Shown: in pieces, positions 2 through 10,723 of the stretch
Layout: each line of letters opens with the position of its first letter
Numbering within the stretch: the stretch's first letter is position 1
Assembly (NCBI GenBank): GCA_946893605.1
Contig: OX335598.1
Span: forward strand, 186,001-250,000
DNA from: Candidatus Saccharimonadota bacterium
Lineage (GTDB): Bacteria; Patescibacteriota; Saccharimonadia; Saccharimonadales; Saccharimonadaceae
Direction of reading: 5' to 3'
DNA length: 64,000 bases
Translations under genes and position numbers: made by a program
Notes under the pieces: model-generated
What the model was told of the DNA's origin: nothing
Seen by the model: only the letters and a program-made list of their open reading frames with translations
The model's database searches: none

Positions 2-448
2 ACGCAATTGGAAAAAGGTCAATCATTCACCGTTTCTGAACATGATGGCAAGGATCACGTTGTGGTGGTTGATGAGGTTGGAATTGGCGAAATTATGAAC
101 ATCAAGGGCAAAAATACGTACCAAGTTTTCCCGAAAGAACTGATGGCGTACGCTACTTTGAGGGATACTGGCGCGCCAAAAAGCCGTCAGTTGATCACGA
201 TTGAGAAGTATAATAATCGCGAATATGATGCTTATCGTAAGGTTCAGCTGAGCGACAAAGAACAGAAGGAAATGTTTGGCAGGACCATTAAGCCGATTGA
301 CTGGACGACGATTATAGTCATTGCCATATTTATCGCCATTATTTTGTTTGCGTTCATCTTCGACAACAACTCTGACAGCAGTAATGGCGGAGGTCACGGC
401 GGATCGCGCAGTGTTTACGGCGGCAGCAGCGGCGGGCTTGGCAAATAA
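2..448 (+). CDS. C-terminal part of a single-pass membrane protein (unknown family)
   Basis: The frame is open to the window edge (ACG CAA TTG...) and no ribosome site precedes the TTG at position 8, so the gene most likely starts upstream and only about 148 codons are visible. The visible part is a charged soluble domain, then one hydrophobic segment (TTIIVIAIFIAIILFAFIF, about 30-50 residues before the end) and a short Gly/Ser-rich tail containing GGGHGG. The tail looks flexible and extracytoplasmic. The SpeE-like gene begins 11 nt downstream on the same strand, so the two are probably co-transcribed. Function not recognised. Confidence 0.6.
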   Translation, partial: TQLEKGQSFTVSEHDGKDHVVVVDEVGIGEIMNIKGKNTYQVFPKELMAYATLRDTGAPKSRQLITIEKYNNREYDAYRKVQLSDKEQKEMFGRTIKPIDWTTIIVIAIFIAIILFAFIFDNNSDSSNGGGHGGSRSVYGGSSGGLGK

Positions 449-1989: not shown

Positions 1990-4638
1990 TTAGTCGGCGG
2001 TAGTGTTCTTTTTTCGTCGGCGACGTCGTCTTTTTGGTGTGGCTGAAGCTAGCGGTGTAACTGTATTGACTACGGTTTCTGTGGTCACGTTATCATTGCT
2101 GCGAATTTGCAGAACAACTTCACCGTCGTTAGCTGTAGGCTGTGGCTTTTCCGGTTGGCTATTGACCGCTGGAGCGTTGTTTGCAGGCTGCGGTTGAGGT
2201 TTGGCCGGCTGTTTTTTCTGATTGCGAACAGGCTTTATTGCGGCGTCAATTTCCTTCTCGACATCTTCCCTGTTTCGCGAATACATGCGACGTGAATGTT
2301 CGATAATGTGCGGCGTGTTGTCGGCTTGGCTTGGCGGAAGTTCCAATGTGCGGGCAGAAAACGCGGGAGTTTTCTCGCCGCCGATAACCATATTGACAAC
2401 AAAATTACGATTGTGCATTTGAAGTAGGTCGATTGCCTCGAAGTTTGGCTCAAACTGCTTGGCAAGAATCGGTGCATCGTCAGCGGAAACTCGGAAGGAA
2501 ATCATGGTGCCGACGTTGCCAAAAACCGCATCGCGAACTGTGTCGCTCATCTGGGAAATGTACTGGTTGGCAACGGTCAAATTAAGGCCATATTTTCGAG
2601 CCTCAGACAGAATAGTCGCAAACGAATCGGTGGCGAAGTTCTGGAACTCGTCGACGTAAAGATAGAACGGGCGGCGGTCGCGCACGTCAGGAATGTCGCT
2701 TCGAGACATGGCGGCAAGCTGAATTTTCGTGACCAAAAACGAACCGAGGATGGCAGCATTATCTTCACCGATAAGACCTTTGGACAGATTGACAATTAGA
2801 ATCTTTCCTTCGTCCATAATTTGGCGAATATTGAACGTAGATTTCGGCTGCCCGATGATGTTGCGGATGATTGGATTGGCGGTGAAAGCTCCGACTTTAT
2901 TTAAGACTGGCGCAATTGCCTCGGCGACAAACTTGTCATTCCAGCTGGCAAATTCGACATTCCAGAATTGCAGAACCACGGTGTCTTGGCAATAAGTCAG
3001 CGTTTCTTTTCGGAATTCCTTATCTGTTAGCATACGAGTAATATCAAGCATCGTCGCTTCCGGTCGGTCCAGCAAAGCCAGAATTGTATACCGCAAAATA
3101 TACTCAAGCCGTGGTCCCCACGAATCGCCGAAAATACGCTTTAAAACGCCGATGATTTCTGATGAGATGTTGGTTTTTTGGTTCGGGTTCGTGACCTCCA
3201 GTGGGTTGAATCCCAGAGGATACGCGGTGTCGGCTGGATTAAAATAGATCACGTCGTTCAATCGGCTGCCAGGGATAAATTTCATGTTGTTGATTGCGAA
3301 GTCGCCGTGCGGGTCGATGATGGCATATCCTTGATTATGGAAAATGTCGCTTAAGGCGAAGAGCTCTAATAGTCCACTTTTTCCGGCGCCCGTTTGTCCG
3401 ATTGTGTAAACGTGGCGTGAGCGGTCATAGCGCAACATACCGAATTGGTGACTGATGCCGCGGAAGTTGGTGACGCCAAAGGCAGAAATTTGGTCGTCGT
3501 TGACATCTTCGCCGGTTAAGACTGGCAATTTGGATGGCGGTTCTGCGGTTTTGGAGCTCGCCCAAACTATGTTGGCGTTTCAACATTGGTGTGTGGCAAG
3601 TGAAAAACTGACGCCAATTCTTCTATATTTAAGATAAAACCGTCGCCGATGAACGAACGCTTGCGATATTTATCAATAAATTCTTTGCCAAACGCACCCT
3701 TGACGGCGTGGAATCCATTGAGATTGGTTGAATTGAACTGCTTAAATGTGCCGACGAGCGCCTGCATGCGAAGCTTAGCGTTTGTCTGACTTTCGCCCAT
3801 ATAAACCAAGCGAATTTTTACTTCATAGCCGAGCTTGGTCGCTTTTTTCTCTGCTTCAGAAATGCGAGTTTTGTCGCGGTCTGACAATTCAATAGTTGTT
3901 GATTGTCCGACTCCCTGCTCTGGTGGTTGCCATAACGCGCCAAGTACACCGATTAGCCACTGCATACTGCCGCCGAATCCTGGCAAGGAGAACATTCGTC
4001 CGTTTCTTATACTATTGATATATCGGTCAGCGGCGTCTTGCCAATCGTCGGGGATCGGTCTGACCAGCACCTGAATCCACAATTCCTCACCAGTGGTTTC
4101 CAATTTCGCCAGCGTGCCCGTAATGCCTGCCAGCGGGTCGACCTCGAAGTTTTGGAAGGTGCGAATCGGGAGAAATTCATCTGTGGTTAATGTTAATTCT
4201 GTCGAGTAAGCAACTTCGTGGTCGCGCTCGTGTTCGGTGTAATCTTCGTCGGCTTGGTGAATCTGAACGGTTGGATATTGAGAATAGATCTGTCCTTCGA
4301 CGAAACTTTGCAAGGTTTTTGGCACCCAAACGTAAAAGCGAATTTGTCCATTGACTGAGGCGATTTCAAAGCTAATATGCTCTTGGTGTCCGCCAGATAA
4401 TCGCAATTCTTTATTATCGCGAAGAATTCCGTGTAGTGAAGCGAATAGCTGCTCGGCGGCAAGCTCTTGCTTGTCGTTGGTGCGTGGGATTTCAAGAACC
4501 AAAAAGCACACTCTCAACTGAGGTGAAATCTTCGATCTTCCGATAATTTCGCCACGTCAAAAACATCAGGACTGCCACGATTGGCATCCAAATATACCAT
4601 TGTAATAACGTACCGATGATCCAAGAAATAATCTGCAT
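1990..4638 (-). CDS. VirD4/TraG-like type IV secretion ATPase (two frame breaks)
   Basis: Three consecutive minus-strand frames together make one protein of about 882 residues: a membrane N-terminus (4504-4638, hydrophobic IVAVLMFLTW), a central domain (about 3570-4503) and a P-loop ATPase (1990-3570). The ATPase has Walker A GQTGAGKSG near residue 412 and Walker B LYVDEFQNF near 660. The tail after about residue 800 is Pro/Gln-rich and ends in a basic KRRRRRRKK run. Patescibacteria commonly carry this architecture, related to conjugation coupling proteins that drive DNA or protein through a type IV system. Frames are lost near 4503 (one extra base in a T run) and near 3572 (one base missing); restoring them gives the joins SVLLVLEI and VETPNIVWASS. 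Probably consensus errors. Confidence 0.75.
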
Positions 4639-4682: not shown

Positions 4683-5737
4683 TTAAGCGGCTTCTTCAAA
4701 AACGTACGTGGCTTTAGCGACGCGTTTGAATTGTGGCTTTGATTGAAGGTTTAATAGAATGGTGGTTTCCTTGACTTGTCGTTTATCGAGGACTTGGCGA
4801 ACGATTTCGTCGCGGTGAAGCGGAGTTTCGGAATTCTTCAAAATATCGGTAATGATATCTGCTACAGTTCCGCGACTGTAGCCCCAGCTAGCGAGCGCGT
4901 AAATACCGCGGCCGATTAGAACAAAGCGCTTGTCTTTAATAAGTTCATTGTGAATTGCCTGTGTCGTGACGCTTCGGCGGTTAAATTCGCTATCCCGAAT
5001 TCCCTTGGCGATGTCGGAAAAATGCATCGGCGAGCCGTTGGTGTCCAGAACAACGTAGATTTTATCGCGGATGTTCTTTGGGTTAACGGCTGGCCATTTG
5101 GCTAGTCCCCACTGATCGTTTAAGCTGGCTAATTTTTTACTAACGGTAGCCAAGGCTGCAATGTTTGAAGGATGTTCATAGTCCAATTTTTTGTGCAATT
5201 CTTCCGCGGTAACGGGCTCGCCGTGCTTTTTGATTGTTTTGACAACTTCTTCGACGCGTGCTCTAATTTGCTTTTCATTGCCGAGAGTGTCAATTGCTGC
5301 CGCTTGGTAATAATCGTCATTCTCTGTAACAATCGTGATGTTTTCTGCTAGCTCAGAAATGAACGCCACACGAGCGCGGTCAATTGCAGGTAAGCTTCTT
5401 TACCGAGGAAATGCGACGCCAAATCCTGCATGCGCGCAACTCGTCCCATCTCAGACAAACTCGAAGTAATTTCTTTTTCCATAGCAATAACCGAAGGAAG
5501 TTCTCCCTCGGCGACAGCTGCACGTAGACGTGTTAAGATTGCTTTTTCTAGCTGACGAACGCGCTCGCGAGTAATGCCGAACATATCGCCAATTAACTCT
5601 AATGTTTCTTTTCGGTCGTACAAACCAAATCGTCGAGAAATAATTTCCTTCTCGCGCTCTTGCGGAATCTTAGAAATAATAGTATCGACGACAGAATTTA
5701 ATTTGGCGCTTTGCTCGGTTTTTGTTGTCTCGCTCAT
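4683..5737 (-). CDS. Sigma-70 region 4 / HARE-HTH fusion regulator (one frame break)
   Basis: Two overlapping frames (5348-5737 and 4683-5369) join into about 351 residues. Residues 20-75 carry a sigma-70 region 4 helix-turn-helix (RRFGLYDRKETLELIGDMFG then ITRERVRQLE), which in sigma factors reads the -35 box. The C-terminal half has a HARE-type winged helix (FVLIGRGIYALASWGY), the domain also found in the RNA polymerase delta subunit. There is no sigma region 2, so it cannot melt a -10 box like a full sigma factor; it is more likely an RNA-polymerase-associated regulator. One base is lost near 5385, where KEAYL should continue into AIDRARVAFISE. A TTGACT/TATAAT promoter lies about 60 nt upstream. 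Confidence 0.75.
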
Positions 5738-5797: not shown

Positions 5798-5826
5798 ATT
5801 ATACAATTGCATCTGACAAAAGTCAA
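5798..5826 (-). promoter_or_regulatory. Sigma-70 promoter for the sigma4-HARE gene
   Basis: On the minus strand TTGACT (5821-5826) is followed after 17 nt by a perfect TATAAT (5798-5803). The predicted leader is about 55 nt, longer than for most genes here, and contains GAGGCAGAGAGGA. Confidence 0.7.
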
Positions 5827-5938: not shown

Positions 5939-8283
5939 CTATTTCTTTTTAGCGGATGTTTTGGTGGCTTTTTTAACTACGCGTTTGCGAGTTGGTTTCG
6001 CTGTTGTGGCGCTTAATAGCTCCAGAGCTTTTTCGTGAGTAATAGTTTTCGGATCTGTGTCTTTAGGGATTTTGACGTTTTTGGCGCCGTTGGTGATATA
6101 TGGACCGAATCGTCCATTGAGAACCTTAACTCCATCTGGGAATTCGGCAATATTCTTAGCGGCTTCGGCTTCTAATTTGGCAGCGTAAAGTTCGCGCGCT
6201 TTTTCTAAAGTAATGCTGTGTGGATCTTCTGGCTTAATGGAAACGAACAATTTGCCGACTTGAATATACGGACCGAATCGCCCGATATTCGCCTTGATGT
6301 CTTGACCGTCCTCTGTTTGTCCGACGATGCGTGGCAACTTGAACATTTCCAATGCCTGCTCCAGAGTAACTGTCTCAATTTTCGCACCCTTTGGCAGCGG
6401 TGCAAAGCGAGGCTTTTCGTCGCCGTCAGTTTCGCCAAGCTGTAACATTGGACCGAAACGACCGAATCTTGCGATGATCGGTTTATTTGTCTTCGGGTCG
6501 ATTCCCACTTCGCGATTAGCACCGACTTTACTTCGATCAATCCCGCCAGATTGCTTGATTAATTTATGGAAAGGTGTGTAAAATCCGTGCAACATTGTGC
6601 TTTTTTCCAGATTAGCACCGGCAATTTTGTCAAATTCCGTCTCAACGTTGGCGGTGAAATCGTAATCGACAATTTGCGTAAAATGGTCCGTCAGGAAATC
6701 GGCAATCAGTTCGCCGCTTGGCGTTGGAATAAGTTTGCCGCGTGTCGAGCCAGTTTTTCCTGGACAATACTTCGGCTAACTTCCTCGCCGTTATAATTCA
6801 GAACAATTACGTCACGCGGTTGACCTTCGCTGTCACCCTTTTCAACGTAGCCGCGAGTCTGAATAGTGTCAATAATCGTAGCGTAAGTTGACGGACGTCC
6901 GATTCCAAGCTCCTCCAGCTTCTTAACTAGCGAACCTTCGGTGTAGCGAGATGGCGGTCGTGTAAATGTTTGACGAGCCGTAATATCGTGAGAATTGACT
7001 TCATCGCCAGACTGTAACTTCGGCAGAAGCTCATCTTTATTGCCGCCGTAAACGCGCAAAAATCCGTCAAATGTAATGACTTCGCCCTTCGCCTCAAACT
7101 GAGCGGGCTTTTTGCTCTTAGGTAATTTATCGCCTTTGATATCAATTGTAATAGTTGTTTTTTCTAGTTTCGCTGGCGACATTTGAGACGCTAAAGTTCG
7201 GCGTCGAATTAGGTCGTATAATTTCTGGTCATAGCTATTATTAGACGCGGTTTCCAGGGTGATGTCCGTCGGGCGAATGGCTTCGTGAGCTTCTTGGGCA
7301 GACGCGGATTTGGTCTTAAATTTGCGAACCGTTGAGTAATCTGGACCGTAAAGACGCTTGATAAAATCGGTGGCCGCCGCGATGGCTTGACCGCTCAAAT
7401 TCACCGAGTCGGTACGCATATAGGTGATTTTTCCGTCTTGGTATAATTTTTGCGCCGAGGCCATGGTTGCTTTGGAGCTGAAACCAAGTTTAGAGTTGGC
7501 TTCCTGTTGCAGGGTTGACGTGGTAAAAGGCGCCGCTGGATTGCGCGTTCCTGGAGTTTTTGAGATATCGCTAACAATAAATTCGGCGGGTTTCAGGCTA
7601 TTTAAGAACTCGTTCGCCGCTTCTTCTGTATCAAATTTTTGATTAAGCTCGGCCTTGAATTCTTGATTGTCGTGAATAAAAATAGCAGTAACTTTGAACT
7701 GAGAATTGCCCTCAAACTTCATAATTTCTCGTTCGCGCTCGACTAGTAATCGCACTGCCGGACTCTGAACGCGACCAGCCGATTTTCCGCCCGGAACTTT
7801 CTGCCAGACGACTGGGCTGAGCTCAAAACCAACCAGTCGGTCGAGGATTTGCCTGGCTTGTTGTGCCTGAACCAAATTCATATCCACGGTTCGCGGATTC
7901 TTAATGGCATTAGTTATGGCGTCTTTGGTGATTTCATGAAAGACGATTCGCTTAGTCGTCTCAATAGGAAGGTCCAGCACCTTACACAAATGCCAAGCAA
8001 TGGCCTCTCCTTCGCGGTCTTCATCGGTTGCAAGCCAAACATTTTCCTTGCCGACTGCCTTGACATTTCTCTTTAGCTCGGTGATAACTTTCTTTTTTTC
8101 GGGGTCAACTTCATAGATTGCGAAAAAATCGTTAGCCACGTCAATCGGCGGCGTTCCATCCTTCGTCTTTTTAACAATCGAGCGAATATGCCCCACGCTG
8201 GACAAGACGTGAAAATCCTTGCCGAGATATTTCTCGATGGTTTTAGCTTTGGCTGGTGACTCGACGATAACGAGATTTTTCAT
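5939..8283 (-). CDS. topA: DNA topoisomerase I (one frame break)
   Basis: Type IA topoisomerase, about 781 residues, which relaxes negative supercoils. The N-terminal Toprim domain has VESPAKAKTIEKYLG and the acidic site TDEDREGEA (about 80-88). The catalytic Tyr lies in ITYMRTDS near residue 290. The C-terminus has repeats of the FGRFGPYI type (three or more copies) without zinc-finger cysteines and ends in a Lys-rich tail. The frame breaks at the T run 6754-6758 (A run in the gene): one more A changes QEKLARH to QEKTGSTRGKL and opens the frame into the second part, which starts around 6710. TATAAT lies 8 nt before the ATG, so the mRNA is probably leaderless. Confidence 0.93.
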
Positions 8284-9953: not shown

Positions 9954-9982
9954 TTGACACTTTGTCAAATGTTTGCTATAAT
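9954..9982 (+). promoter_or_regulatory. Consensus sigma-70 promoter driving the 9989-10299 RNA
   Basis: TTGACA (9954-9959), 17-nt spacer, TATAAT (9977-9982): a perfect match in both boxes. The -35 is half of the palindrome TTGACACTTTGTCAA, whose other half gives a TTGACA facing dprA, so both directions could be controlled at one site. Confidence 0.85.
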
Positions 9983-9988
9983 CAAGGA

Positions 9989-10299
9989 CGATTGGTTAAG
10001 TAATCATTAACCAAACGCACCTTATACCCCCTATTCTAACTATATGTTAGGTTGCGCGCAATGGCATTAAGTATTCTTACCCTCCACTTTTTGCGGTTCA
10101 ACGTTACGCGCATACTAACCCCTTTAACTGCCCTTTTTCAAAGGCGACCTCTGTTAAGGCGAGCACTAATTGGTGTTGATAATAGTCAGGCGCGGACTTT
10201 TGGAGTTTTAGTCGCGACGCTTCGCTGATACGGTAGCTCGGGTGGGTTGAAGGGTAAAAAAGCGTCAGGTGATGCCCACCCTTACCTGGCGCTTTTTTG
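9989..10299 (+). ncRNA. Putative structured non-coding RNA, about 310 nt, unknown family
   Basis: A perfect promoter begins and a strong terminator ends a segment without a credible reading frame. Visible stems: GGTTAA/TTAACC near the 5' end (9993-10011), CTAAC/GTTAG around 10038-10052, and a long-range pairing GGTTGCGCG with CGCGC...AACC around 10052-10117. I looked for hallmarks of RNase P RNA, tmRNA, SRP RNA and T-box leaders and found none. 6S RNA cannot be excluded by eye. It lies between dprA and a Fur-type gene, both on the other strand, so it is a stand-alone transcript rather than their leader. Confidence 0.6.
10261..10299 (+). terminator. Rho-independent terminator of the putative RNA
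   Basis: AGCGTCAGGT and ACCTGGCGCT form a 10-bp stem (one G-U) with a 12-nt loop, followed directly by six T residues. Confidence 0.9.
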
Positions 10300-10309
10300 T
10301 TGGGAAAAA

Positions 10310-10723
10310 TTATTTATTTTCTATAATATGTCGGCACTTTTCGCAAATACCTTCCAACTCAAAGTGGTGTTTTGTGACTATGAAATTATGTTTTTTACCG
10401 ATGAGATCTATGAGTTTTTCGAGTTCTTGCGATTGTATGGGTTCGGCATTTTGACAATTGATGCAGTAGAGATGGTGATGATGTGGTATAAAAGGTTCTG
10501 CTAACTCGTAATAGTTCTTCCAGCCAATAGTTATGGTGTTTATAATATTCAGATTATCGAACATCAGCAGTGTGCGGTAAATGCTGGCACGGTTAATGTT
10601 TTTGCAGTTTTTCGCAATATCGCCGACCGTAAGAGGCACATCTGAATTTCGCAGGATATCAAATACTTGCTGGCGTGGTTTTGTCAGACGAAGATTGTGG
10701 TGTTCAAATATTTCATTTAGCAT
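10310..10723 (-). CDS. Fur-family metal-responsive repressor
   Basis: A 137-residue protein of typical Fur/Zur/PerR length. Residues 1-75 are the winged helix (LTKPRQQVFDILRNSDVPLT and NRASIYRTLLMFD). The C-terminal domain has a His cluster HHHH (81-84) and two CxxC pairs, C87/C90 and C127/C130, the structural zinc site. It lies 47 nt after the permease gene on the same strand, so the regulator is probably encoded with its transport target. Whether it senses Zn, Fe or peroxide cannot be told. Its 3' end is close to the terminator of the opposing RNA. Confidence 0.88.
   Translation of the reverse strand: MLNEIFEHHNLRLTKPRQQVFDILRNSDVPLTVGDIAKNCKNINRASIYRTLLMFDNLNIINTITIGWKNYYELAEPFIPHHHHLYCINCQNAEPIQSQELEKLIDLIGKKHNFIVTKHHFELEGICEKCRHIIENK

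Follow-up and report, generated by a model that had tools for sequence, protein, structure and literature searches.

In the SigO-RsoA system of B. subtilis, region 4 of a sigma factor is found apart from region 2. The system is listed as two chains (PMC10141391). The delta subunit of RNA polymerase (RpoE of Bacillus) is reported to consist of one folded domain followed by a disordered acidic tail, with the N-terminal domain docked between the shelf and the jaw of beta' (PMC7749165). Helix-turn-helix motifs resembling sigma region 4 also occur in DNA-handling and defence proteins, among them BrxL and variants of DndH, according to two further papers (PMC12839542, PMC10853773). The gene analysed here encodes a protein in which region 4 is joined to a HARE winged helix. 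As in SigO-RsoA, its region 4 is separated from region 2, but here it is attached to an array of winged helices, and no separate region-2 protein was found in the genome. With delta it shares the HARE winged helix, seen in Pfam and NCBIfam matches and in a compatible fold; it differs from delta in its region 4, its three additional winged helices and its basic end. With RpoD/SigA it shares region 4, in sequence, fold and recognition helix, but it has neither region 2 nor region 3, and RpoD is encoded by a separate gene of the same genome. A literature search that took in little of the subscription literature found nothing on transcription initiation in Patescibacteria and no region 4-HARE protein from this phylum, so that a prior mention of such a protein is possible. 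The leading reading of its role, a plausible one, is that of a promoter-selecting accessory factor. That it is a housekeeping RNA polymerase accessory factor of Patescibacteria, bound at promoters, has in our judgement about an even chance of being right.

The window, a stretch of 64,000 nucleotides, covers positions 186001-250000 of a presumably saccharibacterial genome that consists of a single contig of 701,908 bases and has a completeness rating of 83%. The gene lies on the minus strand and is present in the window as two overlapping ORFs in different frames. The N-terminal ORF (5348-5737, 129 amino acids) contains region 4, the start of winged helix 1 and then out-of-frame residues, as seen by Pfam and tblastn. 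The C-terminal ORF (4683-5369, 228 amino acids as called) contains the end of winged helix 1 and then winged helices 2-4, as assigned by Pfam and by a structural model built with relatives (pLDDT 82, pTM 0.56). The frame change was placed at about 5378-5402 from tblastn of relatives and from intact ORFs in related loci; most of the tblastn rows listed follow the N-terminal frame to about 5393-5402. Region 4 and HARE are in one ORF in 106 of 109 related loci (a set that includes some genomes twice, e.g. L005/L111 and L007/L034), and the intact proteins are 341-365 amino acids long, counted from the first ATG. Two of the three exceptions (L039, L102) reach the end of a contig and the third (L108) is a chimeric contig with an unrelated left part. 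This last record (DBRN01000012.1) is titled Atopobiaceae and has a saccharibacterial-type gene fused to unrelated sequence, pointing to a chimeric or mislabelled assembly.

The break in the gene is probably an assembly indel; a true pseudogene could also account for it. An indel-rich assembly accounts best for this break and for those in three other genes. The upstream neighbour, which from its sequence we take to be topA, is on the minus strand at 5939-8283 and is divided in this assembly between two frames, at 5939-6595 and at 6706-8283; loci such as L045 and L070 have it as a single long ORF. The downstream neighbour on the same strand, encoding a TraG/TrwB/HerA-like ATPase (1990-4517; Pfam match on 1990-3528), is split into 1990-3528 and 3567-4517, and forms a single ORF, about 2.4-3.0 kb long, at the seven saccharibacterial loci listed with an ATPase match. 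The rpoD gene of this genome (G000 contig 1, about 7195-8117; L114, L145) is frameshifted inside region 4, which is intact in all 29 RpoD sequences of relatives that were read. A purely local explanation is weakened by split genes elsewhere: the ATPase gene is in two ORFs in the distant-lineage loci L245 and L246, and the region 4-HARE gene is likewise broken into two ORFs in the more distant relative L247.

The initial annotation had described region 4 joined to HARE without region 2, and in these three respects it was borne out; it had overlooked the break in the frame and the total of four winged helices. Region 4 (5519-5659, minus strand, residues 27-73 of the N-terminal ORF) was found by Pfam search at 49.3 bits (Sigma70_r4, E 3.6e-13, cut-off 24.1). 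HARE-HTH scored 38.7 bits in the C-terminal ORF as a whole, being the sum of two stretches (E 1.3e-9, cut-off 25.9), and the best single stretch in a six-frame search of the genome reached 21.5 bits, under the same cut-off. HARE in the window is thus a sound but not a strong match; it is clearer in relatives. Both Sigma70_r4 and HARE-HTH were matched in 30 of 30 aligned relatives, HARE at E 0.001 or better and at best 3.1e-15. Following region 4, the model of the relative L033 (pLDDT 88, pTM 0.69) has four winged helices: region 4 at residues 3-76 and the winged helices at about 81-148, 154-211, 222-281 (HARE) and 291-346, with limits drawn by hand from secondary structure. In the window, winged helix 2 is at 5103-5276 (predicted structure, residues 32-89 of the C-terminal ORF), winged helix 3, the delta-like HARE, at 4884-5060 (best Pfam stretch and predicted fold, residues 104-162), and winged helix 4 at 4698-4865 (predicted structure, residues 169-224), all on the minus strand; the last carries a KETT.LLNLQ stretch whose columns are invariant in 26 sequences. 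Region 4 and HARE are the best conserved parts of the protein, each with a mean top-residue frequency of 0.86, compared with 0.77 for winged helix 4, 0.65 for winged helix 2 and 0.60 for winged helix 1. Since sigma factors filled the fold list of the whole model, the C-terminal part was modelled alone, and its fold search gave tandem winged-helix matches at high rmsd to SelB, which binds nucleic acid, UFL1 and cullins. These matches indicate no more than a common arrangement. RNA polymerase III subunits appeared weakly in the fold searches.

The recognition helix is nearly equal to that of RpoD. TRERVRQ was found in 106 of 106 relatives and TRER[VI]RQ in 20 of 20 distant relatives, and all 29 RpoD proteins have TRERIRQ. 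We take recognition residues of this type to be the readers of the -35 element, following structures of sigma-A with the -35 element such as 1ku7. Across 15 pairs, region 4 was 35-48% identical to region 4 of RpoD from the same genome, and residues 2-87 of the L033 model superimposed on sigma-A structures with Z 11.7 (82 residues aligned, 1.7 A). The helix is among the points in favour of an accessory factor acting at promoters. Given the broken frame in the window, the gene might be suspected to be a complete sigma factor that lacks region 2 through an error in sequencing, or one half of a split sigma factor with region 2 encoded by a separate gene. The first half of this suspicion is refuted by the intact relatives: neither Sigma70_r2 nor Sigma70_r3 is among the families matched by 30 of them, and the frames of saccharibacterial relatives give only about 20-45 residues before region 4, counted from the first ATG. 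A full sigma factor after frame correction was therefore rejected, since the relatives have one ORF and no region 2 in it. A genome search for a region-2 partner gave none; the sole Sigma70_r2 match of the genome is rpoD, in an assembly whose 83% completeness leaves room for a missed gene. Taken together, the two forms of this explanation are highly improbable. The model of the defence sigma factor MzaA was matched by its C-terminal region-4 part alone, at 50.9 bits against a cut-off of 800. As a separate observation, several relatives (G011, G012, G026, G031, G032, G034, G039) have more distant sigma-like matches beside the main RpoD, up to four in all in G032.

The HARE domain of the window, as a predicted structure, matched B. 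subtilis delta (2m4k) with Z 8.5 over 70 aligned residues at 2.4 A. Unrelated winged helices score Z 8.4-9.6 against the same domain, i.e. as high as delta, so the likeness to delta rests on the sequence match. With the NCBI model of delta the window scored 34.7 bits and two relatives scored 41.0 and 45.7 bits, the cut-off being 42. The region 4-HARE protein was the one HARE match in a six-frame search of this genome. An acidic C-terminal tail like that of delta is absent: subtracting the basic from the acidic residues over the last 40 positions gave between -9 and -3, a net basic end, in 106 of 106 relatives. The delta-like HARE speaks for an accessory factor of RNA polymerase; the missing acidic tail and the unspecific fold match speak against one.

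It had also been proposed that many promoters in this DNA depend on extended -10 boxes rather than on -35 boxes. The first part of the proposal stands, as TGn-extended -10 boxes upstream of genes numbered 13 in the window compared with 2.4 in shuffles, and 38 compared with 5.4 in the related genome G004. The contrast was too sharp, because -35 boxes paired with -10 boxes were enriched too (6 compared with 0.6 in the window, and 9 compared with 1.4 in G004). When sites of G004 were aligned on the -10 box, TTG appeared at the right spacing (58, 42 and 41%), and the 21 aligned sites of the window had TT alone at that spacing (57 and 42%). Elsewhere in the window, at 9954-10311 on the plus strand, a promoter that fits the consensus exactly and has a palindromic -35 (TTGACACTTTGTCAA) precedes a conserved stretch of about 320 nt that could be aligned in 6 genomes (folding z -2.9) and ends with a terminator-like hairpin and a T run. 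No Rfam family matched this element at gathering score (best 20.1 bits compared with 40, on the other strand), nor was a tRNA or tmRNA found in it, and it is a candidate for an undescribed small RNA.

Upstream of the region 4-HARE gene itself is the promoter TTGACT-17-TATAAT (5798-5826, minus strand; -35 at 5826-5821 and -10 at 5803-5798), which is near-consensus in relatives as well. In 105 relatives, some genomes being included twice, the 150 nt upstream were scanned for TTGACA-16..18-TATAAT; the best match had no mismatch in 33, one in 51, two in 17, three in 3 and four in 1. A threshold of three or fewer mismatches separates poorly from shuffles (104 of 105 compared with a mean of 59), and for this reason the threshold of zero or one was chosen. 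Among the 84 loci within that threshold the spacing was 17 in 83, and 80 of the promoter strings were distinct. Applied as a control to 249 genes (the window and 200 kb of G004), the same count found no gene with zero mismatches and 10 with one, the region 4-HARE gene included; an exact site, G004:C1:32954, does fall within those 200 kb, but outside the scanned regions. Across 25 genomes there were 0-22 sites of the exact pattern per genome; the reversed control gave a total of two. The genome studied here has a single exact promoter site, which is not that of the region 4-HARE gene. At 20 distant loci, searched over 230 nt, 6 had no mismatch and 6 had one; among 134 genes around 12 distant-lineage loci, with the region 4-HARE genes counted in and gene starts assigned by a simpler rule, the corresponding numbers were 4 and 6. 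The sequence GAGGCAG ahead of the start codon was considered as a leader motif and set aside, being present at just 10 of 105 loci.

The near-consensus promoter is a further point in favour of an accessory factor. High expression and autoregulation would both explain it, and a strong promoter may signify high expression alone, which would weaken the point. The same promoter, together with a recognition helix that is nearly RpoD's, allows a reading in which region 4 would compete with RpoD by blocking -35 elements or the flap tip, as a decoy or a global repressor. Initiation at -35-dependent promoters would then be lowered and extended -10 promoters would escape; both kinds of promoter are present, and an own -35 site near consensus would suit negative feedback. 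An extended -10 box is also found, though, in 53 of the 101 own promoters with at most two mismatches, so that such a competitor would not repress its own gene sharply. Binding of region 4 to the -35 element or the flap tip, on which the competition would depend, is itself predicted from sequence, and we regard a competitor of RpoD as unlikely.

The neighbours of the gene are conserved. Among saccharibacterial loci that have 900 nt of flank or more, 93 of 105 carry the ATPase gene downstream and on the same strand, 83 of them within 600 nt, and 82 of 98 carry topA upstream, 52 of them within 600 nt. At distant loci the ATPase gene adjoins in 7 of 12, and topA is also there in 3 of 12; the ATPase gene is not adjacent in L237-L240 and L248. 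In other classes an ATPase match lies 13-421 nt behind the region 4-HARE match, by match coordinates, in at least 27 of 40 genomes, and in the remaining 13 the ATPase is not adjacent or not among the matches listed. The steadiest neighbour is thus a gene for an ATPase of the DNA-pump type and no RNA polymerase gene, which counts against the accessory factor. It is also the ground for the main rival explanation, that the protein is a DNA-binding partner or operon regulator of the TraG/HerA-like ATPase with no role at RNA polymerase. Its five DNA-binding folds would grip DNA and pass it to the pump, or would control the operon. One report gives a parallel, a sigma-like helix-turn-helix inserted between the REase and HerA-FtsK domains in some DndH proteins (PMC10853773), and the SelB-like tandem winged helices returned by the fold search fit nucleic-acid binding. 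On the other side, the ATPase profile matched 40 of 40 genomes with a weak hit to the region 4-HARE protein, just as it matched 40 of 40 with a strong one. These are profile matches and not proof of orthology, but because of them the pump probably needs no region 4-HARE protein, and dependence of the ATPase on it is not supported. The five distant loci lacking adjacency add to this, and a partner of the pump would leave the invariance of the -35-reading residues without explanation. We hold this rival possible but rather improbable.

Returning to the accessory factor, a point in its favour comes from lineages with two copies of the gene. In the three two-copy loci read (L237, L238 and L239, from G213, G117 and G325), one copy is directly behind a gene for an OmpR/PhoB-type winged-helix regulator on the same strand. 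Around the one copy read in G066, a fourth genome with two copies, no such gene was seen. A tie to core genes of RNA polymerase between the two copies in other lineages was considered and dropped, as the ORF starts listed there do not resemble polymerase genes, for most of them a judgement made by eye.

The family is present in 38 of 41 genomes of near relatives, the genome studied here included, with one match per genome except in a single case, where two contigs each carry a piece. This near-universal presence favours a general role such as that of an accessory factor. Three of the 41 have no match, two of these being more than 90% complete. In a sample of the phylum, 369 of 379 genomes matched at E 1e-5 and 10 did not. 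The matches were divided by eye into 214 strong ones (best E 1.4e-22 or better) and 155 weak ones (9e-15 or worse); all 37 sampled genomes of the same class were strong, as were 177 of 342 from other classes. Since HARE was found in none of 40 weak-hit genomes searched out of the 155, the weak hits are probably RpoD region 4. At 20 distant strong loci that were read, the region 4 helix was present in all, and in 19 it was near the start of the ORF. The 165 of 379 phylum genomes and the 3 near relatives with no strong match are a point against an accessory factor of housekeeping type.

Outside the phylum the search covered plasmids, phages and viral contigs. The closest relative found there is an Abditibacteriota plasmid protein annotated as rpoD (BCM94557.1, AP024153.1, L206), of 568 amino acids and without region 2. 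It resembles the family in region 4, in a HARE match below cut-off (E 0.011) and in the last winged helix, and aligns to it at both ends; it differs in a longer N-terminus and in its position directly before a gene for an Eco57I-type methyltransferase. A restriction or defence use of the same module is possible, and the restriction-type neighbour of this relative counts against the accessory factor. With the full protein as query, two plasmid records were found, this protein and a match to region 4 alone, together with one viral contig matching over region 4 only. The C-terminal part had no match in the phage set. With BCM94557.1 as query, apart from itself there were only matches of region-4 size, in 8 plasmid records and in 10 of the 11 phage records listed. 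On the records searched, carriage of the family by phages or plasmids was rejected.

As an accessory factor the protein would bind RNA polymerase and work alongside the main RpoD, so that promoter complexes are stabilised or selected and transcription is affected. Region 4 would sit at the -35 element, perhaps on the flap tip of beta, and the array of four winged helices would tether the protein to RNA polymerase and/or to upstream DNA, the third being of the kind that docks delta between the shelf and the jaw of beta'. The level of the protein may be tuned through its own near-consensus promoter. A wider form of the idea, a general transcription factor of Patescibacteria that reads the -35 element in trans, shares its recognition with RpoD and is under feedback through a closely kept consensus promoter, seems to us doubtful. 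If it were true, such sharing between RpoD and a separate protein of region 4 plus four winged helices would be a bacterial arrangement reminiscent of the winged-helix factors that go with archaeal and eukaryotic polymerases. A saccharibacterium has reportedly been manipulated genetically (PMC10633639), and this makes the accessory-factor idea directly testable. Much of bacterial diversity belongs to the Patescibacteria, and transcription initiation in this group is poorly known. With a strong match in 214 of 379 sampled genomes and an unchanged -35-type helix, the region 4-HARE protein makes a good candidate for an initiation component specific to the lineage.
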